64,000 bases of DNA from Selaginella tamariscina (taxonomy: Eukaryota; Streptophyta; Lycopodiopsida; Selaginellales; Selaginellaceae). The notes below the pieces were generated by a model. That model was not told the DNA's origin. It saw nothing but the letters and a program-made list of their open reading frames with translations, and ran no database searches. A program made the position numbers and the translations under genes. Positions within the stretch are counted from its first letter, which is position 1. The number at the start of each line of letters is the position of its first letter. Positions 1 through 47,749 of the stretch are shown piece after piece. The stretch lies in assembly GCA_003024785.1 (NCBI GenBank), contig PUQB01000304.1, forward strand, positions 1 through 64,000. Direction: 5' to 3'.

Positions 1-879
1 AACTGGGCTCTCAAATTTGTATTGAGGCATAGTCTTTGTGGGCAAGCTACACTTCTCCACTAACTTTATTGACACAACGTTATCACTACTCCTGCTATTT
101 CATAAAGACTCGCACTGGACGCTCACCAAGTCATCCCTCCACCACAATAGCACGTGTATGTGGCTCCTCTCGTGCCATGTACTTTACATGTTGAACAGGA
201 ACAAACAGAAATTTATCTTGTGGTTTAGAGAAGTCTCCTTTGTACTTCTCTCCACTCCATCTCCTAAAGCTTATTAAGTGTCTACTTGTCCTTACCACCA
301 ATGAAACCCTTCTTTGGACAATTTGCCTTTCAGTGTCCAACATCTCCACATAGGTGGTATTATCCTTTCCTTCCACCAGGCACTCATCTCGAACCTTGCT
401 CGATACCAATTGTTAGGCACCACTACGTACAAACTAGGACCCTCACAAAACCACCCAACCTCTCCCAAGTTGTCTCTAGTCTCCACACGTTGCTTTACAA
501 AAAAGGCTTCACCCTTAATCTCTTAGATCTAGGTATATATCTTCACGAATATTCTGGCTTATACCTTTCTATGGGAATATTCTTTGATTCGTTATATGGG
601 TCATAATAAAACATGCCAATGAAACTCTAAATGCCATGCAAATTCTAAGTATTGCAAATACCAATCCTAATCCTTTTAAATAAGATTTACATGCTTAGAA
701 ATCATACCTTTAAAAGCCTAATGCTCGATAGCCCGTATTTTGTGGATGAAAGGGAAATGTAAAAGATTGTTAAATTTATTTGTGAATAAGAACCTTTAAA
801 ACTTTAATAATAAAAATGAGTCCATTATTTAATAAATCCGTTATGGACATGAATGGTGCAAATTACCCAAGTGAGTAGA
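1..879. other. Unassigned AT-rich sequence, probable transposon remnant
   Basis: Short frames on both strands (for example about 131-409 on the minus strand) show no motif I recognise. The stretch abuts an integrase fragment, so it may be more decayed polyprotein or LTR, but nothing in it proves this. Confidence 0.25.
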
Positions 880-1135
880 AAATCAAACAACACTATGGAC
901 CGTGGTATCTAGTAAAGCTGCAACCTCCACCCAACGTGTGTATAAATAATCTGTTAAAACCATAACATATCTATTGCCTGCAGCCAAAGGAGAAAAAGGA
1001 CCAATTAAATCCCATGTTACAAGTTTGAATGGTTGTTCTACCTATATAGATTCTAAAGCATCAGTTAATCGTGAAGAGTTTTGAGTCTGACACAATAAAC
1101 AATCGTACTGTACTGGATATCATCTCGTCACATAT
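880..1135 (-). pseudogene. Ty3/gypsy integrase core fragment (minus strand)
   Basis: The reverse complement reads through a recognisable integrase catalytic-core start: a WDLIGPFSPLAAGNRY block followed by VMVLTDY and TRWVEVAALLDTT. This is the first Asp region of gypsy integrases (D-x-I/xGPF...NRYxxVxTDYxTRWVEA). One stop codon lies just before it (near 1048) and the frame is lost after it. Only the N-terminal part of the core is present, with no RT or LTR attached. It faces the opposite way from the integrase fragment that starts at 1140 and belongs to a different gypsy family. Confidence 0.6.
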
Positions 1136-1139
1136 TTGG

Positions 1140-2090
1140 CCAAGGAGGTTGCATGAGGTCTTGAGTAGTGATGTACCCTGCGAGGATCTTAACTTTTGTA
1201 CATATGGCACGATTTTTTCGATTGATGGATGACATGCTTGTGTTTGTTGGATACAGTTCCGAGTGTCGTGTGGTGGCACCACCAATTTACATTAACTCTT
1301 GGTTGCAGTTGTTTTATGACAACAACCCGATGTCCGGACACATAGGATTCTAACGATGCCTTAAGAGGATTCGACAACACTTGTATTGGCCCCAATTATA
1401 GCAAGAATTACATGAGTACATTCATACGTGTCCACAGTGTCAATAGCATAACGTGTCCACACTTCCTCCTGTTTGCAAACTCTGGAGCCAATTCGAGTTT
1501 CTTGCCCCTTTAAGCTGGTAGCTTATGACATCATAGGATCATTTCCTTATATTGCAGTTTGGTAATCGATCGATACATCATTGTGTGCTCTGATTGCTTG
1601 ACTCGGTGGGTAAAAGCGTGTGCTTTGCTGAATGCTACAGCAACTTCTATCATCAAATTCTTGCTAACTCAAGTGGTGCTGAGGCATGGTTGTCCCAAAC
1701 AAATTTTATCGTATCAAGGATCGGGGCCAACAACAGAAGTAGTAGCTTTATTGATGCGATGGTTGCAGATTCAACAATCATTTACCTCGGCTTATCATCT
1801 TGAAATTGATGGTTGGTAGAGCGGTTGAACATGACTTTCAAAGTCATGCTTACCAAGTATGTGAGTCCTGACCATATGAATTGGGATATGTGACTTCCAT
1901 ATCTCTAGTTCACTTATGTTTTAACCGCTCACAAGTCAACATGGATTTTCCCATTCAAAGCTTTGTATGGTCGTGAATATGTTTGCCGCTAGCAGTTGGC
2001 ATCACTCTTCATGAGGCATAAGATATATGAATGAGCGTATGTGGTTGGAGCATTTTAACCAAGTCTTTCCTATGTTGTTATATGCTCAAG
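1140..2090 (+). pseudogene. Decayed Ty3/gypsy integrase (zinc-binding plus core), plus strand
   Basis: Broken frames encode an H2C2 zinc-binding remnant (DNNPMSGHIGF, about 1318-1350) and an integrase core (DRYIIVCSDCLTRWVKA, about 1570-1620; later HGCPKQILS and SAYHLEIDG, where functional relatives have AYHPETDG). Stops and frameshifts occur throughout. The stretch is closely similar in nucleotide sequence to 16690-17600, the 3' part of the larger decayed element in this window, so both come from one family. Reverse transcriptase and LTRs are absent here, so this is a 5'-truncated or eroded copy with no coding capacity. Confidence 0.75.
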
Positions 2091-2099
2091 GTTGAAAAG

Positions 2100-2440
2100 C
2101 CCATACAACTTTATGATATATGTTATGTTTATTAATTATTGAGTTATTTTGATTATGTTAATTTTGAGTCACCTCTATAGTATTTACTATAATTACTTTA
2201 CAACATATGTTATATAATATAAATTGTCGAAATATATAATGTTATTCAAGAATATAAACACAATATTAAAGAAATTTATAGTTTTAAAACTCTTTATTTA
2301 GAAAAACCAATCTTTAGTTAATAAATTTATATTTAAAGTTTATTATCCTATTTACCCAAATTTATTTTAAAATGACTTCTTAAGTGATTCTTTCTGTTTA
2401 ATTTTTTCATTATGTTCTTCTTATTTTTCCTCTATTTTCT
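2100..2440. other. AT-rich spacer, nothing recognised
   Basis: Very AT-rich sequence with no open frame of note and no repeat I can define. It separates the integrase remnant from the tRNA fragment. Confidence 0.5.
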
Positions 2441-2448
2441 GAGTCACC

Positions 2449-2498
2449 AGGTCCCACCGAGATTTGAACTCAGGCTATTGGATTCAAAGTCCAAACCA
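2449..2498 (-). tRNA. 3' half of a tRNA-Gln(UUG), pseudogene
   Basis: On the minus strand the sequence forms a perfect 5-bp anticodon stem (TTGGA/TCCAA) around the loop CTTTGAA (anticodon TTG). A T-arm follows (CTGAG-TTCAAAT-CTCGG) and then the acceptor 3' strand TGGGACC with discriminator T. This matches the 3' half of plant nuclear tRNA-Gln. The 5' half (acceptor GGTCCCA, D-arm) is missing upstream, so a functional tRNA cannot form. The B-box promoter element is intact. It may be a broken tRNA gene or a tRNA fragment captured during retrotransposition. Confidence 0.6.
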
Positions 2499-2646
2499 CA
2501 AAAAGTTACTTACACATCAATATCAGTTATATATAACACTATACATATGATTATGAATGCAATATGATACACTAGATTATACTAGTATTCATAATATAAG
2601 TGACACCTTTATTTCAAAGCCATTAAAAAAAGAACTAACAAGCTCT

Positions 2647-4173
2647 TTACCACTCTTTACGGCGTCCATATCCACTTGAGCCATAACCAGATCGTCCATA
2701 CTCCTCCCCTCCCTGAATAGATCATATTATTAACATTTTATATATGAAGATAATAATTGTTAACATTCTATTAACTTACCAGGGAGAGACCCTCAACCTG
2801 CTCAGAAACGTCATCATGCTTGTAATGCTTTCCATGTTTGCGTCCACTCTCATCTTCACCATAGGTTTTACCATATTCGTACCCTTCACTAGTCTCTTTT
2901 TCACCACCGTATTTCCCACCGCCGTACCCTTCATCTACTTCACTTGGTTTCTTACGTACCCACCACCGTAACCTTCAGTTTCACCTTCTTCACCATACTT
3001 CTTACGGTATCCACCACCGTACCCTTCGGTTTCACCTTCTTCACCATACTTCTTACGACCGTACCCTTCATCTCCACCGTAGTTTTGCTGGCGTATCCTT
3101 CATCTCCACTGTACTTCTTCCGACCACCATCAACTCCGCCGTAGTTCTGCTGGCCGTACCCTTCATCTTCACCATACTTCTTCAGACCACCACCGTACCC
3201 TTCATCTTCTTCACTGTGTTTCTTAGCATACCCACTACCGTACCCTGCGGTTTCACCTTCTTCACCATACTTCTTACGGTACCCTTCACTTTCGTCTTGA
3301 CCATACTTCTTCCGACCGTACCCTTCATTTCCACCGTAGCTTTCCTGGCCGTACCCTTCATCCTCATTCTTCAGACCACCACTGTATCCTTCATTCTTCT
3401 TCTTACCACCGTATCCTTCATCTCCACCATAATTCTGCTGACCATATCCCTCCTCTTCACCGTATTTCTTACGACCACCGTCACCACCGTAACTGGCACC
3501 GTATCCTTCATCCTGTCCGTACTTCTTCCCACCGTAGCCTTCGTCTTCCAACTCCACCTCCACCTCCACCGTAAGCACCGTAGCTTTGACCTCCACCGGA
3601 GGTTTGTTGAGCACCGTAACCTTCATCCTGACCGTACTTCTTGCGTCCACCGTACCCTTCCTCTCCTCCTCCGTACTGCTGCTGCCCACCACCGTAACCG
3701 TGGCTTTGAGTACCTGTGGAACAAAAACTATCAGGCTCTCTCATGACAATCTATACTATTTATAAAACTGATTAATTTATAACTACTTAAATATACCTTC
3801 ATCTTCCCCATGCTTCTTGCGACCACCATAGCTGGGCTTGGAGTGCCCATAATTAACAGAGGCGTACTCAGCAGCATGCTCAGATCCACCACCACCATAT
3901 CCCTGGGGTGTAGGAGCTTGTACGAACTCACTCCATCGTGACCATGCCCGTAGCAAGACGGCTTGGCATTTCCGTACTCCGCAACACGATCCACATCTAT
4001 ATTGGATTCATACTCACCGGATTCATCACTCTGTGGTAGCTCCAGTCCGGATTGGCCTCACGGATCGGTCCGTAAACAGATGCAATGTCGTAGCCTCCGA
4101 CGTATGGCTCCGGATCGAAATCCTCGTGGTCCTCTGCGCTGTCTCCTCGATCGCCCCTCCATCTTCGTGCCAT
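2647..4173 (-). CDS. Tyr/Gly-rich GYGxKKYG-repeat protein, PLDrp1-like
   Basis: Three exons are inferred: 4173-3797, 3713-2780 and 2712-2647, with GT/AG introns (GTATAT...CCACAG and GTAAGT...TTCAG). The N-terminus, starting MARRWRGDRGD, contains FDPEPYVGGYDIASVYG, which resembles the start of plant PLDalpha1-regulated proteins (PYGGGYDI-x-x-TYG). The long second exon is low-complexity: about a dozen imperfect repeats of the type DEGYGGRKKYG, rich in Tyr, Gly, Lys and Glu. The C-terminus is EYGRSGYGSSGYGRRKEW. No enzymatic domain is visible. Such repeats suggest a disordered, possibly RNA- or membrane-associating protein; that is inference. Exon 1 has two frame breaks (near 4035 and 3920) and the repeat exon has more, so the frame cannot be followed without correction. 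A G-box lies about 60 bp upstream of the ATG. The family assignment is moderate. Confidence 0.55.
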
Positions 4174-4233
4174 TGCTAATCAAATCCGATCTACCTGGGA
4201 AGTGAAATTATAGGGATAATATGCCACTGGGAA

Positions 4234-4241
4234 CCACGTGT
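4234..4241. promoter_or_regulatory. G-box / ABRE-like CCACGTGT
   Basis: A palindromic CACGTG core (4235-4240) lies 62 bp upstream of the predicted ATG of the Tyr/Gly-rich gene. This is a usual promoter distance for bZIP/bHLH binding sites. Function is inferred from position only. Confidence 0.35.
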
Positions 4242-4744
4242 TGCCTGCGCGTGGCAGCGCGTTATCTATTTAATGAAATTATCGATTGACTTTATGCCGT
4301 ATGAGAATATGCTATATATTCGTTGCATAGTAACGATGAAACAAGGAATATGCGCATCAGGAGAAATTCCATGTTGTCAATCCAAATTTTCACGGTGATG
4401 ACATGGAGACGTATATTCTTGCGGTCAATTGATTTCAAATGTTTGAATTTTTAAATTTCTGATTTTTAAGTTAAATTGTTAACTAATTAACTCGATCTAA
4501 GCATGTTTATTAATATATTAACGAATCTTAAACTTCACTTCATTCCAAAAAATCAACACACACACAATTATATTTATCCTGTGATTTACTTTGATATGGT
4601 TGGTGTTTGTCTATATGAGTTGTAATATGTATGCATATTTTCTCAATAATAATAAACGATTTTATTGTCAATTGATTTATAACTTCTATAAATATTAAAA
4701 AATTAGTTTTATATAACCATATTAAAATTTTCATTTTTTTTATT
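4242..4744. other. AT-rich intergenic spacer
   Basis: Contains the upstream region of the Tyr/Gly-rich gene and the downstream region of the EF-hand gene. No coding sequence or repeat is recognised. Confidence 0.5.
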
Positions 4745-12756: not shown

Positions 12757-14356
12757 TGTCAGAGTTTTAACCCGAAGGGCTAACGTGGCAACACGTGGCT
12801 GCCAAGTGGCCATTCAGCATCATCACCATATGTGCCAATGCTAAGAGTCTGACTCAGAGGCCCAATTAGGCAGAAGACTTAAAGTCCTACCCTAAGTTTC
12901 CTAGAAGGACCATCCCCTGAACCTTAGAGGATAACTCGAGTAGACTTTAGGATCCTATCCCAGTAGACCTAGACAGGCTCATGCCCTAGCCCCACAAAGA
13001 AGATGTGTCTCACACATACCCCGTGATAGAGCCAAGGCATCGTCACTTACCCCTTGAGGAATCACCCTCATCCGGGAGTACAACCCCTTTAGGTGACAAT
13101 GGGTACCCTGAACCACAACTAACTCCCTAAGGCTAAGTTTGGATAATCCTAAGTACATGACCTTGCGAGTGCTTCACGAAGAGGCTTCTGCTAACAAGCT
13201 TAGGTTGTTCAACCCCTAGATTCCAAGGAGAACACTCCCCTAGCCAAGTGTGCCTAAGCACACCTAGTTATGAGACCTAACCTCCCTTGAGCAAATGCCA
13301 AGGCTTAGCACTCTAGTGTGAGCACAAGCATGTCTGTTTTGCTAAATTATCCAACCCCTTGGTGACAAGCCCATGACTCAACCCCAAAGGGTGTGCCTCA
13401 GGCATTGTATCGTGTGACGTATAGCCCAGTGTCACATCTCCATGTGACACTGCCTTCCACGATGTGGGCTATCAGCCATAGCCCTTAGATTCAAGAGTTG
13501 CACCAAGTGCCACAAATGTGGCTCCTAAATGCCAACTCTAGAACCCCTTAGTGAACCCTCAGAAGTTGGGTAATGAGAACCCGTCAAACAAGATCCTATG
13601 CCCACAGTTGGACAAGGACACAAATGTGCCTTGCTTGGCCATGAGTGCTACACCTAGCTTAACATGGAAGAGGAGGCTGGAGACAAGCCTCAACCTTTGC
13701 CTTTGGAACGTGCATTCCCACAAGACCTCCCAGGCATGGATTTTCCAACGTTAAGGGTAAGTTACTGTCATTTGGAAGTTAGGGTGGCACAACAGAGGGT
13801 TGTGCTTTGACGACACAAGCTACAACTGGGAGAAAAGTAACGAGCTCAATCATGAACCCAGGAACCCTCACTCTTACCTTATTTATGTGACGAAGCCCTC
13901 CCCCACCCCCCCCCCTTCCCCTTTTCCTGAATGTGTATGTGGGCTTGCATGAATTTAGCTGCCCCTTATTAAGTTAATGAGAGAGTGTTTAACTTAGCCT
14001 AACTCTAACCCTAAAACCCTACCCAAGGGGTTTTTAGGGCGTGGGTTAGGGCAACCCTAGGGTTAGGTCAACCCTAGGGTGTTCCTAACCCTACTAAACA
14101 CGTCAAACTCATTTACATTAACCAATTAATCTAATTGGGACATCAAAATTGGGGGTGGGTTTCTAGAAGGTAAGTTCTAGCTTCGCTTAAAATTTCCTGC
14201 AAATACCTAATGGCACCCGGCCGGACCATTACCAGATACCCAAGTGCACTAAACAGGCATGTTTCATACTACATTTATGGTCCATCAACATAGTACAGTA
14301 AGTAGCAACAATTAACGTCCAAAGTAAAGGGTCGAGTCATAGTAAAAACTATGACA
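12757..14356. mobile_element. 1.6-kb LTR-like element (copy 1), inserted in gag with CACAA target duplication
   Basis: The element begins TGTCAGAGTTTTAACCC and ends ACTATGACA, so it has TG...CA termini. It is flanked by identical 5-bp repeats CACAA (12752-12756 and 14357-14361). Removing it restores the surrounding gag reading. A second copy lies at 46088-47749. Neither copy contains a protein-coding frame of retroviral type, so each looks like a solo LTR of a large-LTR element or a non-autonomous element. It carries telomere-like CCCTAA/ACCCTA phrases near 14005-14075 and a terminal hairpin (GTCATAGT-AAAA-ACTATGAC). Confidence 0.8.
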
Positions 14357-14361
14357 CACAA

Positions 14362-17300
14362 CGATTTGAGAACTCGTTGAGTGCAGCACAACGTGTGTAT
14401 CCTATGTCGGCACCTGTTCCTGGAACTTCTTTGACATCCGATCATGTTCCAATAGAAGTGGGTGTTGTCCAGATGGAGGACAAGTCCTCAAGCCACATGA
14501 GTGGTCGAGGCCAATTTGCTGGTCAGTGTGGTCGTGGTCATGGGCGGAACATTCAGTGCTATGAGTGCCAAGGTTGGGGACATGTTGCATGAGCATGTGC
14601 AAATCGACATCAAGTAGCCACCATCGAGACTACAGAAGAAGTTAGATGCTTCTTCAGCCAGAAAACGGGGAGTAGTGCATGGGGTGTCAGAGGACCCATG
14701 ACATCACCTCTAAAGAATATGACTCATGTGCATAGTCAACACTTCCCTGAAGCACCTTTGTTTTTCCATGCTTGTGCGGGCATTGAGTTGTCGAACACCA
14801 AGCGTTTTATGTTTGTGTTCTTAGGCATGGTAGAAGGAACTCTTGTTTTAGTCCTGGTGAACTCTGGATTTGGTATATCTTTTATCAATCAATTGATAAC
14901 TGAGTCTCTGCACTTGCACACAGTACTTACCAAGTGGACTCTGAAGGTAGTGTTTGTTGATAAGAAGTCCTTTGCTTGATCACATTGAATTGCACACGTG
15001 TCTGTGGTGTTAAGAGGATACCATCATATACTTTTGTTGTGGTTAATGCCGAGCCAAGTCCATGACATCATCTTGGGTGTCAATTGGCTCCGTGCGGTCA
15101 AGGTGAGATGTGATTTCGAGACATGCATGCTGTTTATCCCATGATGCCCTCCATTGTGGGCTATAACATGCACTGCATGGCATGGCGGCGACATTGCAGG
15201 GCATCATGGTGCTTAAGGAAGAGCCTTCCCTAGAGCAACTAGCCAAGGACATCAAGGACTTGTTAGCAAGGTATCCGAACCTATTCAAACCCATTGTAGA
15301 AGCTGCAAATCCCTTATTGACTACTCAGCATCACATTTCAACTGGTACAACTCGCCTGATCATGATGGGGCTCCGGCAATGTTTTTCGAAGGAGAAGGAT
15401 ATTCTAAATCATTGTGTGAGGGAGATGCTGGAGTTGAAGGTGATACATAAGTCCCGAAGTTCGTAGGTGGCAGAACCACACCTAGTTTCGAAGCTAGATG
15501 GGACTGCACGTTTCACTATCTACTTTCAGCCATTGAATGATGTTTCTATTCCAGATTCATATATATTATCGAGGGTGGATGATTTGGTCGATGCATTGGG
15601 GAACAACCGGTACTTCATTATCCTTGACATGGCTTCTGGCTATTGGCAGATCCTTATGGCTCTTGAAGATGCAACAAAAAACAGCATTTGAAACACCATT
15701 TGGTTTGTATGAATTTACTATTATGTCATTTGGATTGATCAGGGCCCCAACAACCTGATGGATGAACTATTAGAGGGCTTTAAAGAATTTGCACGTGCGT
15801 AAATTGATGACCCTTTGATTCACTCTATTACGTGGGAGGAGCACCTTCAGCAGTTAAAATGGGTCCTGCAACGATTAATGCAATACGGGCTAAAGTTGAA
15901 AGAGCAGAAGTGCAAATTTGAATGTACCTCTTAAAATACCTCGGATTCATCATCATGGCAAAGGGTGTGAAGGCGGATCCTGAGAAGACCCTGGCTGTAC
16001 AAAAATTTCATACTCCTAAGTCAATGGCTGAGTTGCAACATTTCTTGGGGAAGGCAACATACTTAGCAAGGTTTATTCCGTGGTTCTCAGATTTGACTAC
16101 CCATTGCGGGATTGTTAAGACAAGGAGCTCGGTTCCTGTGGTCCAAGAAGTGTCAGAAGGCGTTCAAGGGCGTTAAGGCACTGCTGGGATCCCCACCTTT
16201 GTTGCGGTATTCAGACTTTAGCAAATCCTTTATTCTTTGGACCGATGCTTCAAATGTCGGGTTGGGAGCAGATCTATTGTAGAAGACTCCCAATGGTCAG
16301 TGGTACCCAATGACTTATGCAAGCTGGAGCCTTAATGATGTAGAGAAAAACTATCCACCATGGACAAGGAATGCTTGGCAGTCGTATGGGCTTTTCAAAT
16401 GTTTCATGTGTATTTACATGGCTCTGACACATTATTGGAAACTAATCATGCTGCAATCAACTCGATCATGAAGAGGAGGAATGTGACGAGGCGACTTGCA
16501 CATTAGACTTTTATTCTGCAAGGGTATCATTTTCGGGTTGTTCATCGGCCAGGATGTAGCATGGTGAATGTGGACGCGTTATCCCGAGCTCCTATGGCGG
16601 TGGCGGCACCTGTGGCATTGTTGTCAAATGCCCTTCTCGATTGCGTCCTTCTGAGACGGGAAGACATTGTGGAGGCCCAAAGACAAAGCCGCGGATCAGG
16701 AGGTTGCATGAAGTCTTGAGTGGTGATGTACCTTGCAAGGATCTTAACTTTTGTACATATGCACGGTTTTTCAGATTGATGGATGACATACTTGTGTTTG
16801 TTGGAAATGGTTCCGAGTGTCGTGTGATGGCACCACCAATTTACATTAACTCCTGGTTGTAATTCTTTCATGACAACCTGATGTCCGGACACATGAGATT
16901 CTAACGATGCCTTGAAAGGATTCGGCAACACTTGTATTGGTCCTGATTGTGGCAAGACATGCATGAGTACATTTATACGTGTCCGGAGTGTCAACGGCAT
17001 AACATGTCCACACTTCCTCTTGCTGCAGCCTTGAAGCCAATTCGAGTTTCTCGCCCCTTTGAGTTGGTAAACTTATGACATCATGGAACCATTTTCTGTG
17101 TCACAGTTTGGTAATCGATACATCATTGTGTGCTCTAATTACTTGACTTGGTGGGTAGAAGTGTGAGCTTTGACGAACGCTACAGCAACTTTTACTATCA
17201 AGTTCCTACTAGCTCAAGTGCCCCAAACAAATTTTATCAGATTAAGGACTGGGTCCAATAGCGGAAGCAATAACTTTGTTGATGCGATAGTTGCTCATCC

Positions 17301-17600
17301 GACAATTCTTTGCCTTAGCTTATCATCTTGAGACTGATGGTTTAGTGGAGCAGTTAAACATACACTCAAATTCATGCTCGCCAAGTACGTAAGCCCTAAC
17401 CATACGGATTGGGATATGTGGCTTCCATATCTCTAGTTCGCTTATGTTTCAGCCCCTCACAAGTCAGCAAGGATTTCCCCATTCAAAGCGCTGTATAGTC
17501 ATGAACATGTGTTGCCACCAGCAATTGGCATCACTCTTCAAGAGGCACGGTATATAGATGGGCGTATGTGGTTGGAGCATTTGAACCAAGTCCTTCCTCT
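14362..17600 (+). pseudogene. Decayed Ty3/gypsy gag zinc knuckle and pol (PR-RT-RH-IN)
   Basis: In order: a CCHC-type knuckle CYECQGWGHVA-x-AC (about 14556-14597); a protease-like segment LVNSGFGISFINQ (about 14850-14890), where the catalytic Asp of D-S/T-G is replaced by Asn; RT with EPHLVSKLDGTARF, SRVDDLVDALG and FIILDMASGYWQI (about 15470-15660); the RT thumb/RNase H link LKYLGFIIMAKGVKADPEK (about 15925-15985); RNase H LWTDASNVGLGAD (about 16238-16275); an integrase zinc finger and core (about 16780-17340). Stops and frameshifts occur in every domain. It shares the integrase family of the remnant at 1140-2090. Confidence 0.85.
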
Positions 17601-21068: not shown

Positions 21069-22066
21069 TCAAAATAAAGCTTTAGGCAGAAGCACTTGAT
21101 CCCACGGCATATATATGACCACTGGCTTGTCGTTGAAGACAATGCCAACAATGTAAGACTCAACCAGCCCAGTCTCAACAGCCACCTTCAAGCCTCCCAT
21201 ATAATTGACCCTCACCTCGAAACCGGCCAGAGTCTGCAGCGCTCCTTGATGAACTTGAGACTCCACGGAGGAGAGTAAACAGGAACAGCGTGGTAATTAA
21301 GCACAGTTGACAAGAAGATTATTCTCGTTTATCTTAGACCACGCCTTGGGTGTGAGTGACTGGAACGCCTTGTCACTTGGAGCGAACAAGGTAAACGCTG
21401 GAAGAGACTCGAGATAACCCGTCACCTTGCGTGTCGGTAAGAAGGCCTGAGAAGGTCTTGAAGAACGGAGAAGCCTTCAAAGCGCTGAGAGCCTGAACGG
21501 CAACAGAGGCATCGCAGGAGGGGGATGTGGCGGTGACGGCAGAACTATATCTTTTGGGAACAGTACCTTGTCGCAAACGTAGACAGCCACGGGATGTGCA
21601 TCGAAGGCCTGAGCAACGATTCGTGAGAGAATGTTCTTGTGGTGTTGACGTAGTAACCAGGTGTGATGGATAGCTGGAATGTGGATTTGTTGTCCCCAGA
21701 TGCAATTGTGGAATCATCTTGTTAAGCAGCTTCTCAAACCGGGCAAACCTGTAGTACTTAGACAAAGCATGGTACTCCAACACCTTGATCATTTGCTCAC
21801 GGGTCAGCTTCTGGAGGAACTGTTGCACGCCTGCCTCGGCAAATGCATCGTCTGTGGGAGCAAACAGTGTGAGACCACGAGATTTCTTGAAAGCTCCAGA
21901 TATAACATCCACATTCTTCAAGAGGCCAAGCAAGACAGTAAAATGGCCATCAGAGGACAAGGCTTTTGATTGCAGCATTCACTTGCTCCGGCCTCACTCT
22001 TTGGCACCCTCAGATCCGCTGCAGAGAAACTGATGAGACAAAGGAGAATGAATGGAGAAGAGCCAT
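21069..22066 (-). CDS. Fasciclin-like (FAS1) arabinogalactan-type protein
   Basis: The start is ATG 22066 (MALLHSF...), followed in a shifted frame by a hydrophobic signal-like stretch LILLCLISFSAADL. Two FAS1 domains can be read in pieces. The first has FTVLLGLLKNVDV, GLTLFAPTDDAFAEAG, LTREQMIKVLEYHALSKYY and VAVYVCDKVLFPKD. The second has VQALSALKASPFFKTFSGLL, LPAFTLFAPSDKAFQSLTP, NYMGGLKVAVETGLVESY and VIYMPWDQVLLPKALF, then the stop. A Pro/Ala-rich linker separates them. FAS1 proteins are secreted cell-wall or membrane adhesion glycoproteins. At least four frame breaks are needed. No GPI-anchor tail is seen after the second domain. A partial copy lies just upstream at 22482-22890. Confidence 0.75.
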
Positions 22067-22481: not shown

Positions 22482-22890
22482 TCAACTGGAAACCGACCAG
22501 AGCTCGGCCAGAGTCGGCAGCGGCTCCTTTATGAACTTGAGACGGATAGTAAACAGGAACGCCTTGTCACTTGAAGCGAACAAGGTAAACGCTGGAAGAG
22601 ACTCGAGATGATCCGTCACCTGAGTGTCGTTAGGAAGAAGGCCTGAGAAGGCTTGAAGAACGGAGAAGCCTTCAAAGCGCTGAGAGCCTGAACGGCAACA
22701 GAGGGAGGGGGAGGTGGCGGTGACGGCGGAACCATATCTCTTGGGACAGCACCTTGTCGCACACGCAGACAGCCACGAGATATGCATCGAAGGCCTGAGC
22801 AACGATTCGTGAAAGAATGTTTCTTGTGGTGTTGATGTAGTAACAGGTGTGATGGATAGCTGGAATGTGGATTTGTTGCCCCAGATGCGA
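22482..22890 (-). pseudogene. Partial tandem copy of the FAS1 gene
   Basis: The minus strand repeats the middle of the FAS1 gene (DAxxVAVxVCDKVL, then LPAFTLFASSDKAF) with high nucleotide identity to about 21370-21720. The first FAS1 domain, signal peptide and most of the second domain are absent. The copy is broken by frameshifts. Confidence 0.75.
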
Positions 22891-37139: not shown

Positions 37140-39063
37140 TTACCTTGGTCACTACATTCCGAGCCTACACTACTCTCAATAGAAGGCTCACGTCTTATGC
37201 GTGCGAAGTAGTTGAGACCGAGTTGGGAGTACTGGGATCTTATGGATGGCTAATGCAGCCCGATGCTTAAAGAAGATTTTTGGTGGCAGTGGCTTAGTAA
37301 AGATATCAGCCACTTGATGTTCTGTTGGAATAAACTTGAGTCCCAACACTCCCTCAGTCACTTGCTCGCCAATAAAATGAAACTTATCTTGAATATGTTT
37401 TGTTTGAGCGTGAAACTTCGGGTTTTAAGATAATGCAATAGGCACTCTTGTTGTCGCAATGAATCAGTGCAGCTCCACTCTGCTTCAAGTATAGGCCTTC
37501 AAGTAACTCTCTCAGCCAAATAGCCTCTTGAGCAGCTAGAGTAAGTGCCACATACTCAGATTCCGTACTTGAAAGTGCTGTAACTTGTTGTCGCTTACTA
37601 ACCCACGTAAGAAACTCCACTTCCCATTGTGAAACAATAGCTTGAAGTGGAACTTTTGGTTTCTTGGTCACCTGTCGGAGATATACGCTATGAGTGGTTC
37701 AGGGAGAGTCACGACTCTTGATATGTATTTATTGTTACGATGGTATCTGACCATATTCATATATTAATTGTACACATTCATTGTTCATTTCGGTCCGCTT
37801 ATTCACGACATCATCAGCATAATCGGCATCTGTCTGTAAATATCTCAAAATCCGCTTCACAGCCAACCAATGGGACCAGCTTGGATTAGCCATGTACCTG
37901 GCAACGGCATATGCTATGTTTGGCCGAGTACAAATAACCAAGTAAATACAATCTGACGAAAAGGCATGTTCTCCATCCTTTGTCATTCCTCGTCAGTAAC
38001 TGGGGACATGTCCTATGTTAGATGAAAATTAGCCTAAGGATTCACCTATGTGAAACCAAATCGGCATAGTAGTTATTGGACATGACAAAGTCACAATGCT
38101 TGTCAACGTGCAACTATAATCCCTATAAAAGTTATGACTGCACCTAAATTTGTCACTCAAATTTAATAGTTAGCTTATGCTTTGTCTTAGCTAACAGGAA
38201 GCCTCATTTGAGAGAGAAAGATGCAATCATCAACATACAGAGCCAAGATCACCAAGGAATCACCAAACTGCTTGCATTTGTCTCCTGAAAGCCAAGAGAT
38301 GTCCAAGTAATGATCTATCTTCCCATGGCACACTCGTGGAGACTGTTTCAAGTCATATAAGGCTTTTTTAATAAGACCTGAATATAAACTTCTTCCTGTG
38401 GCTCACTGTTAAGGAAAGCTGTCTTAACATCCATGTGCTCTAGCAAGTCATACTTTGCTGCTAAGCCAAGAAGAAGTCGAATGGAAGCCATCTACACCAC
38501 GGGGAAAATGTTTCCATACAGTCAACTCCCTCGACTTGAGAGAAACCTCTTGCAACACCTTCCCACTTGTGCCAGTCTTCAAACAATTTTAGTAGAAACC
38601 ACATTGGCTCCATGTGGTAACATGTGACGTCTCATTCTTCTCATGAGACTTCATCTCATCAGCCACTGCAACTTCCCATTCTTTAGCTTGTGAAGATTTC
38701 CTTGCTTGGATCAATGTAGGAATCTTAGTTGCAGTGAACATTGAAGAGGGAGGTTTATAACTCTTTCTTGCTAAAAGCCTAGCACATTGATTACAAGCTA
38801 CTTCTGGTATGCCGCTCCTTTCTCAGTGTAACGAACCTCATGAGATGACCTTCTTGGTGTAGAAGGCTGAGTGGATGATGAAGGGGAAACCGTAGGTGCT
38901 ATGACTTCAGCTGCGACTTCCTCATCATTCACAGGTGGAAACACCACTAACAGATCTTGTAACATAGCTTGAACAGTCACTAACACTGTAGTTGTTGGTA
39001 CAACTCCCCCTGAAGTCAAAGCACCATTGGCAAAAAACCGTGAGGTATAGAGTCAAAGCCATC
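37140..39063 (-). pseudogene. Decayed Ty1/copia pol (RT and RNase H), 3' segment
   Basis: On the minus strand, reading down from 39019: a Pro/Ser-rich linker (QPSTPRRSSHE); RT with GFSQVEGVD, ETFSPVV, MDVKTAFLN, KKALYDLKQSPR and the catalytic YVDD (38226-38237, ALYVDDCIFL); VICTRPNIAYAV with AVKRILRYL (about 37840-37930); RNase H SSTESEYVALTLAAQEAIWL and DNKSAY (about 37440-37570). Stops and frameshifts are frequent. The other half of this copia sequence lies beyond the inserted chromovirus, from 44854. Confidence 0.85.
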
Positions 39064-39428
39064 TGTCACGACCTTGTGCAAAGGGCGAAATCTTTAGAAC
39101 AAGGGTGGAACCTTGAAAGGAGGAGATTGTATTCAAGAAAGAAATGAATACAAAATGAAACACAAAACCGAAGACTGGTGTTGAATGATTCTGAGAAACC
39201 TAGAACTGAAACCCTGTTTATATATCTGAGGTCCTGAGGATTGTATGGTCCACAACTGGTTGAAATCTGTAATCCACAACTGGTCTGGAATGTGGGTCCA
39301 CACTGGTCTGGAGCTGTTGATGGTGTAGTTCAACATCCAGGATCATACGGACCAGTTGGTTAACACAGTGTGTGTTAGCCAAAAGGTCTCGGGTTCAAAA
39401 GGCAAAAAAATGACTCATAATCCTTACA
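39064..39428 (-). repeat. 3' LTR of the chromovirus
   Basis: TG...CA ended. It contains TATATAAA (near 39224), the CTCAGAATCATTCAA block about 30 nt downstream of it, and direct repeats of CCACAACTGGTCTGGAATGT. It carries small deletions relative to the 5' LTR, one of which damages the tRNA-like B-box. Confidence 0.9.
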
Positions 39429-39442
39429 CTATCTCCCCCTTC
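39429..39442 (-). other. Polypurine tract (plus-strand primer site) of the chromovirus
   Basis: On the element strand GAAGGGGGAGATAG lies immediately before the 3' LTR, the canonical position for second-strand priming. Confidence 0.8.
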
Positions 39443-39464: not shown

Positions 39465-40015
39465 TGGTCCAGGTTTTGCAAGATATCGTTGATGGAACTC
39501 GGCAACAAGATCAAGAGCATGAACAAGATGAACTCGGCAACAAGATCAGGAGCATGAACAAGATGAGCACCGCGCGTCATTGCAGGTTTTGCAGGATATT
39601 GTTGATGGAACTCGGCAACAAGATCAGGAGCATGAACAAGATGAGCAGCAGGTTCCCAAGTGCGTTCGCTAGGTGGATAACTGATCCAGTCCACGAAATA
39701 GTGAAGCTGACCACGAACAAGTTTGGTCCAGGTTTTGCAGGATATTGTTGATGGAACTCAGCAATAAGATCAGGAGCATGAACAAGATGAGCAGCAGGCT
39801 CCCAAGTGCGTTCGCTAGGTGGATAACCGATCCAGTCCACGAAATAGTGAAGCTGACCACAAACAAGTTTGGTCCAGGTTTTGAGGATATCGTTGATGGA
39901 ACTCGGCAACAAGATCAGGAGCATGAACAAGATGAGCAGCAGGCTCCCAAGTGCGTTCGCCAGGTGGATAACCGATCCAGTCCACGAAATAGTGAAGCTG
40001 ACCACGAACAAGTTT
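39465..40015 (-). repeat. 146-bp tandem repeats of chromodomain-coding sequence
   Basis: Three full units (39579-39724, 39725-39870, 39871-40015) and one partial rearranged unit (39465-39578). On the element strand each full unit encodes the same chromodomain core ([23 protein letters not shown], then [11 protein letters not shown]). The period is not a multiple of three, so only the first unit (39871-40015) continues the pol frame and the others lie in other frames. Confidence 0.9.
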
Positions 40016-43000
40016 GGAGTCAAGAATTGCAGCAACCTCGAACTCAGGTTCACCAGCAACTGTAACTGGAGGAGGTGGTGGAAGAAGTCGGCCAGGTTCA
40101 GAAGGAGCATGATAAGGCTCCAACAAAGAAACATGGAACACGGGATGGATCCGGATGGTTGGCGGAAGCTCGAGACGAAACGTCACATCAGAGAGTTTGT
40201 CGATGATGCGAAATGGCCCCAAGCGTTGATAGTCCAGCTTGTCACAGGGACGTGTGGTTGGCCAATGACGCCGGAGGAGCCACACTTGGTCACCAATTGT
40301 GAATGCTGGAGGAGAGGAACGGGAACGATTAGCAGCTTGTTGTTGCAAATCCCGAGCGTTGAAGATGATGCTGCACTTCCTCATGGACCTGTCGGAGATG
40401 CTCAACACGATCATCGGGCAGTGGTGAGGCCAGGAACCACGGGCAAGCTGTAGGACCAGCGAGGATGAACACCAGAGAACGCGAAAAATGGCGACACACC
40501 TATGGATGAGTGTGCCGTGTTGTTGTACGCGAACTCGGCAGCAGGAAGGAGATCGACCCAATCATCTTGCAGATGAGAAATGAAACACCGGAGATATTGT
40601 TCCAGAGTCTGAATTGTGCGCTCCGATTGTCCATCTGTTTCAGGATGATGTGCAGTAGACAGCTTCCCGGTGATACGTAGCCGATCTAGGAATCTCCGCC
40701 AGAATGCCGAAGTGAACTGGGGACCTCGATCAGTGACAAGTTCATCAGGAAGACCATGAAGGCGGAACACCTCCCGGTACACCAGATCTGCAGCATCAGG
40801 ACCCGAACATGTCTTGTTGCAGGGAACAAAGTGCGCCATCTTAGAGAACCGGTCAACAATGACTAGGACAGCATCAAACCCTCTAGAAGGTGGTAAATCC
40901 GTGAGGAAATCCATGGTGATGGATGACCATGGCCGCTGAGCAATAGGAAGAGGCTGTAGTAGTCCAACCGGTCGATGACGAGGAAGCTTTGTACGCTGGC
41001 ACGTGTCACAAGATCGCACAAATCTCTCAACATACACGCGAAGCCGAGGCCACCAGAACACCCATTGTACCAGCTCGATCGTCTTTCGAATGCCAAAATG
41101 TCCTGCAGCTGTGTTGTCATGGCAGTGTTGGACAGCTCGCAACCTCAGTTCTCCGTCCGGAACATAGATTTGGATGTGGTGGTACAGCAACCCATTATGA
41201 AGATGGAAAGCAGCATAATCTCGTAGTTGTGACCCTGAAGACAATGGCTGAACTCGTCGAACATGTGCAAGGACATCACGAGCAAACTCGTCTTGAGGGA
41301 GATTTTCTCGGATTAGATCCAAAAACGAAGTGTCAACTGGAGCAGAAGAACGGGAAAGCGCGTTCACCAACAACTGGTCGGAGCTCAGAATGACTTGTTC
41401 TTGTTGATTAAATCGGATTTCACCTGGTACTGGAGCTAGGTAACTGCGACGAGATAAGGCATCTGCTTTGCCATTTAGACGACCGGACGATGAATAATCT
41501 CGTATCGGAACCGGGACAAAGACTGTGCCCATCGCGCCTGACGTCGATTGAGAACTCGTGCTGTTGCCCAGTACTGGAGGTTCTTGTGATCACAATACAC
41601 CTTAACCACATGCGGGGAACCTTCAAGGAATCTGCCACTCCTCAAAGGCATCGACGATCGCCAGCAGCTCCTTGTTGTAACATCGTAGTTGATCTCAGGT
41701 GCAGTGAACTTGCGGGAATGGAAAGCAATGGGATGGAGAAGATGATCTGGACCTTCCTGGGACAACACTCCACCAATGGCGAAGTCAGAGGCATCAGCTT
41801 CCACGAAATATGGCTTCGCAGGGTCAGGATGGATAAGAACAGGTGCCGAGGTGAACGCCTTCTTTAGGAACTCGAACGCCTCCTCAGCCTCAGAGGACCA
41901 GACAAATGGAACATCCTTGCCAGTCAACTTCGTCAATGGCAACACAATCTTGGAGAAATCCCGAACGAAACGTCGATAGAAGTTCGCAAACCCGAGGAAA
42001 CATCGAACATCACGAACATTTGATGCTCTCCCACTCTAATACAGTCCGGACTTTTGCAGGATCCATGTGAACACCTTCAGCTGAAATGATGTACCCCAGA
42101 ACTCGACAGACTGCTGACTGAAAGAGCACTTCTCCAACTTGGCAAACAGGTGGTGCTTCCGGAGCCTCTCCAAGACTAACCGTACATGCCGTTCGTGTTC
42201 TTCTCGAGTCTTGGAAAATATCAGGATGTCGTCTAGGTACATGATGACAAACAAATCCAAGAAGTCCCAAAATATCGTTAGCCATGTGCTGGAACACAGC
42301 AGGTGCATTTGTCAGGCCGAACGGCATTACTACGTACTCGAAATGTCCGTAGCGTGTACGGAAAGCTGTTTTCCACTCGTCCCCTTCTCGAATTCGGATG
42401 AGATTGTACGCTCCTCTTAAATCGATCTTTGTGAAGTACCGGGCACCAGAAAGACGTTCGAGCATGTCGGAGACGAGCGGGAGAGGATACTTGTTTGGAA
42501 TGGTGACCTTATTCAGATCTCGTAGTCCACCACGAGCCGGAGACTTCCATCCTTCTTGGAAACAAAGAATACTGGAGCACCAGCCGGTGATCGCGAATGA
42601 CGGATAAATCCGGTGACAAGATTCTCCTCAATGTATTTCCTCAATGTCTCCAACTCTGTTGGTGAGAGACCGTAAATGGGACCGGAGGACGGCTGCTTAC
42701 CCTCAACGAGATCGATAGGACAGTCGTACTCACGGTGCGGTGGCAAGGCAGAAGCTTTCTTTTTGTCGAAGACGTCTGCGAAATCGGCATACTGCTTTGG
42801 TAAGGCAGGAGGAACAGAAACATCCTTAGCAGAGCAGGGATAGACTTTGATCGCGAACACGGATGCTGGGTCATGTCGGCTATCTTTCTTGAACTGCTTC
42901 AAGGTGATATGCGAGACTCGAAGTGGAGGAGGAACTGGAACAGGATCGGAATCAAAGAGTGTGGCTGGAGTTGAAACAGCTGGGAAACTGTTCATGAAAC

Positions 43001-44463: not shown

Positions 44464-44478
44464 CTCAGAATCATTCAA
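44464..44478 (-). promoter_or_regulatory. Candidate self-priming site (PBS) of the chromovirus
   Basis: Two bases after the 5' LTR end the element strand reads TTGAATGATTCTGAG. It is the exact reverse complement of CTCAGAATCATTCAA inside both LTRs (44612-44598 in the 5' LTR). A tRNA-type TGG start is absent. Confidence 0.7.
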
Positions 44479-44480
44479 AC

Positions 44481-44853
44481 TGTCACGACCTTGTGCAAAG
44501 GGCGAAACCTTTAGAACAAGGGTGGAACCTTGAAAGGAGGAGATTGTATTCAAGAAAGAAATGAATACAAAATGAAACACAAGGCCGAAGACTGGTGTTG
44601 AATGATTCTGAGAAACCTGGAACTGGAACCCTGTTTATATATCTGAGGTCCTGAGGATTGTATGGTCCACAACTGGTCTGGAATGTGTGATCCACAACTG
44701 GTCTGGAATGTGTGGTCCACACTGGTCTGGAGCTGTTGATGGTGTAGTTCAGCATCCAGGATCATACGAAGTTGGTTAACACATGTGTGTGTTAGTCAAA
44801 AGGTCTCAGGTTCAAGTCCTGTGAAAGGCAAAAAATGACTTATAATCCTTACA
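44481..44853 (-). repeat. 5' LTR of the chromovirus
   Basis: TG...CA ended LTR. On the element strand TATATAAA (about 44641-44634) is followed 29-30 nt later by CTCAGAATCATTCAA (44612-44598), the expected transcription start. In the distal part (44766-44830) lies a tRNA-like module in reverse orientation. Confidence 0.9.
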
Positions 44854-46070
44854 CCATTCATCATCTTCATCCATTTGGGGATTCATCACTTGCTTATCTC
44901 GTTCCTGATTACTAACACCAGAAACTTTGCTTTACTCATTATATCTAATGAACACACGTTGTATCTAGCTTTTTTCTTAGCTCTGATACCACCTCATTGG
45001 AAACTACAACTTGCAATCTAGATGAAATAACTCTTGTAATTATAACAATATGACCATGTTTCATGTGCTTGATCTCAACACATTGGAAAACTACAACTTG
45101 CAATCTAGATGAAATATTCATCCTCCTCCTCATCATCATTTTATCAATGACGACTTTTAAATTTATCAAAATTTCTCTGAGCAATTGAAATTAGTCTTAG
45201 TTTGGTAACATTCCTCTGACGTTATCTCTTCACCTCATAATCACAAGACTGATGACCAACTTTCTTACTTACCAATGAACCAATGCCACAACAGAGATTT
45301 AAATCCTCAGGCTTCTCAAATTTATCCCTTGCATCACTATTACCTGAAGCTGGCTAGGACTTGAGTGAACACTTTTGGTACCAAGTTGTTCCTGTACATT
45401 TCTCTTTTGAAATATCTAGTTATCATTGTAATTCCTGAATCACGAGAATTAATTGTCATTGTCTTATCAAACTATGCCAATTCTGTACATAATTCTTCAT
45501 GAAAAATCTCTTGCTTCCTCAACAAGTGCATATAAGATTTCAATGTAAAATCCCACAACCTTTAAAAAGCACAACCAAGAACTCACCTTCTTCAACCTCA
45601 ACTTTGAAATTCACTAGTCAAATTTCAGCAACTTTATGCTTTAAAAGGGTGATAAAATGCTCAACACTTTCATCATTTCTACTCCATCGTATAAAACTCC
45701 CTCTTCTTCAGTATAATATCTACATCTTATTTAGCATATGCCCCCATGATAGAGCAAATAGCCCAATTTTCTACAACAGTTTTCTCCACATCCATGTGCA
45801 CATAGTAAAGCCTAAACCACCACCTAGTGCAGCCACTGTTTATGAATTCAAATCTTGCCACTCATTGTATGCATCTTTGTCTCCGATATTTAGACAAGGA
45901 AGTTTTCTCGATACACCATCAACACATTCTCTTAGTCCATCCTTGAATAATATGTAAATATGTACTCATTTTTTAGAACTAATGAAGTCCTCAAGCTTAT
46001 ATTATTTTTTATAAACAATGACTAACAAAAAAGAAAAGACTACACAAAGTTAATTAACTTGTTCATAAAG
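44854..46070 (-). pseudogene. Decayed Ty1/copia gag and leader sequence
   Basis: The minus strand at 45180-45960 reads in pieces as a copia gag: FEFINSG, DVDIILKKREFYTM and a broken knuckle region (FEKPEDL...GHQSCDYEVK). Frameshifts are dense. At 44980-44991 there is a perfect initiator-tRNA-Met primer site. I do not see the copia integrase, which may have been lost. A 35-nt phrase (CATTGGAAACTACAACTTGC...) occurs twice at 44995 and 45078. Confidence 0.6.
44980..44991 (-). promoter_or_regulatory. tRNA-iMet primer-binding site (copia type)
   Basis: On the minus strand TGGTATCAGAGC is the full 12-nt complement of the 3' end of plant initiator tRNA-Met including CCA. This is the usual primer site of Ty1/copia elements. 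Confidence 0.75.
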
Positions 46071-46087: not shown

Positions 46088-47749
46088 TGTCAGAGTTTTA
46101 ACCCAAAGGCCAACATGTGGCAACACGTAACTGCCAAGTGGCCATTCAACGTTATCACCCTTGTGTGAGCAACGCTAAGTTTCCCAGAACAACCCCAACG
46201 ACCCCTAGGGTTAGACTCTAATGCCCAAGTGGACAAGAGACTTTAGGGTTTAGCCTAAGTCTCCCTATAATGTCTACCCCAAAACCCTTGAGGGATAACC
46301 CTAGTTGACTTAGGGTCTTGCCCTAGAAGACTTAGACAGGCTCATGCCCTAACCCCCATCAAGGAGACGTGTGTTCCACACATATCCCCGTGACAGAGCT
46401 AAGGCATTGTCACTTACCCCTTGAGGAATCACCCTCATCCGGGAGTACAACCCCTTTAGGGCGACAAGGGGTACCCTGAACCACGACTAACCCTAAGGGT
46501 TTGAGTGGCCAAGTCATATCTTAGACCTAGGGCTAGTACTTAGTGAGGACACGAGTGTTCTGCTAAGCAAACTCCCTAAGGCTAAGTTTGGGATAACCCT
46601 AAGCACATGACCTTGCGAGTGCCTCACGAAAGGGCTCCTACTAACACGCTTAGGTTGTTCAACCCTTGAATTTCCAAGGAGAACACTCCCCTAGCCAAGT
46701 GTGCCAAAGCACACCTAGTTATGAGACCTAACCTCCTTGAGCGGATGCCCAAGCTTAACCTTAGTGCAAGCACAAACACATGTCTGTTTGCTAAAGTATC
46801 CAACCCCCTTGGCGACAAGCCTATGACATAACCCAAGGGCGTGCCTGGGCGTGTACTATGTGACGTTTAGCCCAGTGTCACATCTCCTCCATGTGACACT
46901 GCCTTTCCGATGTGGGCTATCATGCCATAGCCCTTAGATTCAAGAGTTGCACCAAGTGCCACAAACGTGGCTCTTAAATGCCAACTCTAGAACCCCTTAG
47001 TGAACCCTCATGAACTAATAATGTGAATCTGTCAAACAAGATCCCACGCCCACAGTTGGATAAAGACACGAATGTGCCTTGCTTGGCCGTGAGTGCTACA
47101 CCTAGCTTGACATGGAGGAGGAGGCTGGAGACAAGCCTCAACCTCTGCCTCTTGGAACGTGCATTCCGACAAGACCTCCCAAGCATGGATTCGCCAACGT
47201 TAAGGGTAAGCTACCCGAAGGTGGGACGTACCCCTGGCATCTGGAAGTTAGGGCGGCACAATAGAGGGTTGTGCCTTGACGACACAAGCTAGAGCTTGCA
47301 CCGGGAGAAGAGTAACGAGCTCATTCATGAACCCAGGAACCCTCACTCCTATATACTACCTTATTTATGTGACAGAGGCCCCCCTGTTTTCCTGTTTACA
47401 TAAGTGGGCTAGCACTGAAATCTCATTCCCAGAGGGAACATACTTGGTGAGTTATCCATCGACCCCTAAACCCTAACATGTCAAACCTGGGGGTATTTCT
47501 AAGCATATCCGACATGCCGAACTCACCAGAACTAGCCATTAATCCAACCGGAACACGGAAACCAAGATAAGAGTTTTCTAAATGGAAGTGCTAGCTCGCC
47601 CAGAGTTTCTTGTAAATACCTAATGACACCCGGACAGACCATCACTAGATATCCAAGTGCACTAAGCAGGCCTGTTTCTTCTACACCTAAGGCTTATCAA
47701 CATAGTACAATAAGTAACAACAGTCAACGTCCAAAGTAAAGAGAAGTCA
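46088..47749. mobile_element. 1.6-kb LTR-like element (copy 2)
   Basis: It starts TGTCAGAGTTTTAACCC and follows copy 1 (12757-14356) closely along its length. Examples are the shared CACTTACCCCTTGAGGAATC and GTCCAAAGTAAAG phrases. The likely end is ...AAGTCA at about 47749. Flanks TCACC (46083-46087) and TCATC (47750-47754) may be a target duplication with one change. Like copy 1, it has no retroviral coding frame. Confidence 0.75.

Follow-up and report, generated by a model that had tools for sequence, protein, structure and literature searches.

A decayed Ty3/gypsy chromovirus, lying on the minus strand at 44858-39059 of the window (the whole stretch of 64,000 nucleotides that was analysed), appears from its sequence to start reverse transcription with its own RNA, a reading given a probability of about 0.87. 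Self-priming of this sort is a known way for LTR elements to do without a tRNA primer. The features of the element are given below in the order of its own strand, where L002 denotes a related element described further on.

44854..44858, minus strand: left target-site duplication AATGG, matching the right copy GATGG at 4/5 positions
44481..44853, minus strand: 5' LTR of 373 bp, TGTAAGG...CGTGACA, aligned to the 3' LTR
44634..44641, minus strand: TATA box TATATAAA, from the sequence
44598..44612, minus strand: CTCAGAATCATTCAA, putative self-primer at the presumed RNA 5' end, exact complement of the PBS, 29 nt from the TATA box, with six compensatory pairs with L002
44577..44587, minus strand: left arm of the U5 helix, CGGCCTTGTGT, in the MFE and centroid folds; 0/1000 shuffles as stable
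44486..44496, minus strand: right arm of the U5 helix, GCACAAGGTCG, adjoining the LTR end, from the MFE and centroid folds and the shuffles
44479..44480, minus strand: two-base spacer GT from LTR to PBS, identical in L002
44464..44478, minus strand: PBS TTGAATGATTCTGAG, exact complement of CTCAGAATCATTCAA
43839..44105, minus strand: gag capsid domain PF03732 (Pfam), 49% identical to L002 gag over 135 residues
42262..42525, minus strand: part of the reverse transcriptase, PF00078 (Pfam)
42039-42311, minus strand: YLDD, in a translated frame separate from the PF00078 part
41478..42035, minus strand: RNase H frame, PF17919 and PF17917 (Pfam)
40642..41157, minus strand: integrase zinc-binding domain and core, PF17921 and PF00665 (Pfam), 53% identical to L002
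40109..40294, minus strand: SH3_Tf2-1 domain PF24626 (Pfam)
39890..40042, minus strand: chromodomain with the aromatic residues F, W and Y at the three cage positions (Pfam and alignment)
39432..39442, minus strand: putative polypurine tract GAAGGGGGAGA preceding the 3' LTR, from the sequence
39064..39428, minus strand: 3' LTR of 365 bp, aligned to the 5' LTR
39059..39063, minus strand: right target-site duplication GATGG, flanking the 3' LTR

The original prediction was built on two 15-nt blocks, TTGAATGATTCTGAG at 44478-44464 and CTCAGAATCATTCAA at 44612-44598, which are indeed exact complements at these coordinates, the latter beginning 29 nt downstream from where the TATA box (44641-44634) has its first T. 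As had been claimed, the 3' LTR retains both the box and the block, the latter at 39195-39181, and no TGG, the mark of a tRNA-type primer site, occurs within the first 60 nt past the LTR. The PBS had been placed two bases inside the LTR; the two-base offset is correct, but it runs outward from the inner LTR end (44481), with the PBS behind the spacer GT. From the TATA box and by analogy with Tf1, the RNA 5' end is expected at 44612, and it is to the 5' end so placed that the PBS is complementary. The two LTRs are 95.6% identical over 362 columns, with 16 differences (13 transitions and 3 transversions; K80 0.046) and 14 gap columns besides, and 0/16 of these differences fall in the R arm.

Such complementarity could be due to chance or be a by-product of the surrounding DNA, since the window is microsatellite-rich and complements of at least 15 nt in the adjacent 376 bases were found at 14 of the 6267 positions sampled elsewhere in it, with a maximum of 38. 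Nevertheless, when the longest complement between the LTR and the leader was measured in 5000 dinucleotide shuffles, at least 12 nt were reached in 3 and at least 13 nt in 0, as compared to the observed 15. Random placement of a 15-mer in the window against a fixed target with 11 offsets yielded a perfect complement once in 400000 tries, and 11-nt placement against a fixed target gave 9 in 400000. Inverted repeats of at least 15 nt elsewhere in the window leave unexplained the position of the blocks as well as the covariation with L002, in which the match recurs with different letters. A chance match is rejected on the shuffles, the random placement and the relative, and its probability is close to nil.

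The self-priming reading is further supported by the predicted RNA fold. The RNA from 44612 to 44464 (149 nt) folds at -56.9 kcal/mol (z -9.97, with 0/200 shuffles as stable), the R-U5-PBS segment forming one long closed predicted structure in which all 15 primer/PBS pairs have pair probabilities of 0.90 to 1.0 at three RNA lengths. The U5 part keeps a stable predicted fold when both arms are removed (z -6.82, 0/200 shuffles as stable). In the predicted U5 helix, CGGCCUUGUGU pairs with GCACAAGGUCG and the final LTR bases GAC pair just below, and the spacer GU is also paired when both arms are included in the fold. This U5-to-pre-PBS helix was matched in stability by 0/1000 shuffles in the window and 34/1000 in L002. 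The LTR differences at 44584 and 44583 (C to T) both leave G-U pairs in this helix, and that at 44508, where the 3' LTR has A for G, disrupts one pair of a small hairpin inside the predicted fold. A fold so stable and closed could serve several roles, such that the inverted repeat might act in RNA packaging, in translation, as a dimer signal or as a DNA cruciform, with something else acting as primer. This is very improbable, because in both elements the arms lie at the PBS and near the expected RNA 5' end, and a general stem needs neither position. Downstream of the PBS, the leader to gag (44463-44342) is T-rich, and a 9-bp hairpin, GTGACAAGC/GCTTGTCAT, is predicted directly after the PBS.

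The relative was obtained by a scan of genome contigs with the 373-aa integrase frame, in which L002 was the sole true relative among 26 pattern matches. Two further scans of viral contigs yielded 6 and 78 stretches fitting the pattern and no relative among them; one viral-contig candidate, L001, was dropped as chance, with 28 residues at 48% and frames that look phage-like by eye. L002 is a contig of 4604 bp labelled uncultured Trichormus (a cyanobacterium), and over 1-4604 it is a eukaryotic-type retrotransposon contig within a species-representative cyanobacterial MAG, where it is probably a contamination from a plant host. Trichormus includes T. azollae, a cyanobacterium living in the fern Azolla, and from this association L002 is perhaps Azolla DNA. 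Its identity to the window element is 53% in the integrase, 49% over 135 residues of gag, 51% over 167 residues of the reverse transcriptase (partly out of frame) and 61% over 61 residues of the YLDD piece. With 49-61% protein identity the two elements are distant, and hence the primer/PBS match was kept while its letters changed.

L002 begins at the TATA box (6), continues into gag and pol, and carries the R arm AAGGCGAACAA at 38-48, then the LTR end CGTGACA, the spacer GT and the PBS TTGTTCGCCTT at 161-171. Its primer and PBS form 11/11 pairs, being exact complements in the same position as in the window element, with the R arm starting 32 nt from the TATA box versus 29 in the window. Taken alone, L002 is weaker than the window copy, since its 11-nt match was reached by 4/10000 shuffles and its fold has a modest z of -3.33, with 1/300 shuffles as low. 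In the interval between its TATA box and R arm, TTCGCCTT (20-27) repeats the last eight PBS bases, a complement of the R arm that may have been left by a template jump or may compete for pairing.

Conservation of the complementarity, one of the points on which the original prediction had staked itself, was checked in this one relative, and the pairing is conserved. Of the 11 pairs in the primer/PBS helix, both partners differ in 6 and neither in 5, and all of them pair. The RNAalifold prediction from a plain MAFFT alignment of both elements has 23 pairs, with double changes in 8, the primer/PBS helix accounting for 6 of the 8; besides this helix it contains the U5 helix in shortened form and, upstream, a hairpin of three pairs. 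With the partners shifted by 1-3 columns, pairing was 27-59% instead of 100%, and 0-2 double changes were left of the 6. In a shuffle control on the pair the observed value was reached in 8/500, a floor limited by there being two sequences, the window copy and L002, in the whole covariation comparison. Between the two, conserved blocks occur where the R arm ends (CAACACCAGT) and where the LTR meets the PBS (CGTGACAGTTTG), so that the pair reveals which bases are held, as these are, and which drift together. It also suggests a simple search rule for further elements: CAACACCAG ... CGTGACAGT and, after these, a complement to the bases that precede CACC.

The covariation also bears on tRNA priming, according to which the segment past the LTR would bind the 3' end or an internal stretch of a tRNA and its match to the LTR would be accidental. 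Most surveyed plant LTR elements do carry tRNA-complementary sites (PMC6317226), and half-tRNA sites lacking TGG would escape a search for TGG. However, the complementarity covaries across two elements, and TGG, absent from the first 60 leader nt of the window element, is absent also from the L002 leader up to the start of gag. The TGG-starting PBS of the tRNA-primed plant chromoviruses Tekay, Reina, CRM and Galadriel is not found in the first 60 nt past the LTR. Priming by a tRNA is very improbable. The self-priming inference draws its support from the exact complement lying where the RNA is expected to begin, from the very stable closed fold and from the covariation in one relative.

On the self-priming reading, transcription would start about 29 nt past the TATA box to give an RNA beginning with CUCAGAAUCAUUCAA, whose 5' end would fold back onto the PBS two bases past the LTR, with the primer helix stacking on the U5 helix, which contains the end of the LTR. 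By the example of Tf1, the RNA would then be cleaved by the element's RNase H where the primer helix ends, and the freed 5' RNA piece would prime minus-strand DNA. In Tf1 the cut is made by the element's RNase H, the primer remains on the DNA and the primer helix is of 11. If the primer were copied into the plus strand, the PBS would be rewritten from the RNA 5' end in each round, a change in R would carry over to the PBS, thereby restoring the match by itself; such rewriting would explain the perfect matches. As compared to Tf1, the primer helix has 15 bp in the window and 11 in L002, and the third duplex is unsupported in the window. Tf1 self-priming is described as requiring an RNA with three duplexes (PMC10085805), and two of these three are supported here in the predicted folds. 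For the third, the pairing of U5 with sequence after the PBS, 835 to 916 of 1000 shuffles were as good in the window, and in L002 it is weak, with 17 to 48 of 1000 as good. Thus, a full three-duplex Tf1 'pretzel' is not supported for the window element; in the accounts of PMC10085805 and PMC4600332 this structure is described for Tf1 and several of its kin and is not given as the definition of the group. In the likeness with Tf1 and Tj1/Tosmo, compared by description, the PBS is complementary to the RNA 5' end and U5 forms a helix with the pre-PBS region (PMC10085805, PMC4600332).

The gag-pol character originally read from protein motifs and a chromodomain is borne out by translations and Pfam, the motifs (YLDD among them) and the chromodomain all being present. 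The Pfam order (gag, RVT_1, RT_RNaseH, Integrase_H2C2, rve, SH3_Tf2-1, Chromo) is the RT-RNase H-integrase order of Ty3/gypsy with a chromodomain, and the domain layout of sushi-ichi is like it. Ty1/copia elements have the integrase before the RT, and an element of the TAR type of Ty1/copia is ruled out by the domain order, with RT and RNase H before the integrase and the chromodomain after it. For the TAR lineage (Houba, Osr-1) self-priming has been proposed as well (PMC6317226). The Pfam scan covered ten frames as they stand, of which two matched no family and one had matches only at scores under the curated cut-offs. The coding region is split over several frames and the window copy is not intact; with its coding part broken, activity of this copy cannot be claimed. 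The chromodomain residues F, W and Y align with Y, W and F of CBX5 (2rvl_A; E 6.6e-10), so that the type I cage is kept, its positions being set from this alignment and from the description in PMC3350952. At 39583-40019 part of the chromodomain region is present in three tandem copies of 146 nt, 92-97% alike and with starts spaced by 146 and 145; this spacing is no multiple of three and the later copies are out of frame, which probably reflects slippage rather than a multi-chromodomain protein.

Self-priming in land plants is already in print as a prediction, and the mechanism is not new in kind. According to the survey of Neumann et al. 2019, most Tcn1-clade chromoviruses of mosses and club mosses, which are kin of Tf1/sushi, have no tRNA PBS and were predicted to self-prime (PMC6317226). 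The window element resembles this clade in its Ty3/gypsy domains and cage-type chromodomain, the majority of the clade likewise being without a tRNA PBS (PMC6317226, PMC2864245). In the account of Novikova et al. 2010, Tcn1 occurs in mosses and Selaginella, and for SM-Tcn1 of Selaginella no PBS is reported, with evidence of neither tRNA priming nor self-priming (PMC2864245). SM-Tcn1 shares with the window element a thymine-rich stretch from the 5' LTR to gag, and its way of priming is described as unclear (PMC2864245). In contrast to SM-Tcn1, for which that account gives no PBS, the primer and PBS of the window element match over 15 bp, with compensatory changes seen in L002. The presence of Tf1/sushi elements in non-seed plants is restated in a paper on the S. 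osmophilus genome (PMC10085805). For sushi-ichi and the vertebrate and fungal Tf1/sushi group, the LTR motifs are CNTNACA (the Sushi motif) at the end, to which CGTGACA conforms, and TGTYANR at the start, from which TGTAAGG departs at one position (PMC3601003). The window element and L002 probably belong to the plant branch of Tf1/sushi-like elements. What is new, at the level of sequence comparison, is the primer/PBS covariation between two distant elements.

The gene content of the window (PPR, P450, protein kinase, P4-ATPase) fits a land plant and cannot separate fern, lycophyte and moss. Among plants, the chromodomain cage was found in non-seed species only, and it occurs also in part of Galadriel and Chlamyvir and is therefore not group-specific, as given in PMC6317226. 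The kept cage accords with a host among the ferns, lycophytes or mosses; PMC3350952 draws its range more widely, with type I chromodomains appearing to extend to most green plant lineages, and hence the cage does not prove the host. For ferns and horsetails, the PCR of Novikova et al. 2010 on 26 species gave no Tcn1, and failed amplification is named as possible by the authors (PMC2864245). In the account of two Tmesipteris ferns Tekay and Reina are found, Tcn1 is unmentioned and about 30% of the genome is unmatched to the database (PMC9916801). Among the matches listed from open-licence literature (in the capped lists the best 15 of 110, 12 of 128 and 15 of 52), none reported Tcn1 from a fern. 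It is conceivable, at somewhat less than even odds, that self-priming Tcn1-like chromoviruses exist in ferns (the window and Azolla) and that their two arms evolve as one via rewriting of the PBS from the self-primer. A fern host is possibly a novelty; if the host is a fern, the plant range reported for these fungus-like elements would be wider, with a bearing on vertical descent versus horizontal transfer.

A search of the window for tRNAs and RNA families (ARAGORN; Rfam at the gathering threshold) found nothing. Other repeats are present in the window. Another family has two copies at 13019-14329 and 46386-47741, about 33.4 kb apart, and a further repeat has two copies about 15.5 kb apart at 1143-1982 and 16698-17510, with pieces 79-94% alike and a frame at 1529-1816 in the first copy that looks integrase-like by eye. 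A repeat pair about 1.19 kb apart occupies 21359-21635 and 22553-22821, its first copy lying within a fasciclin-domain frame.
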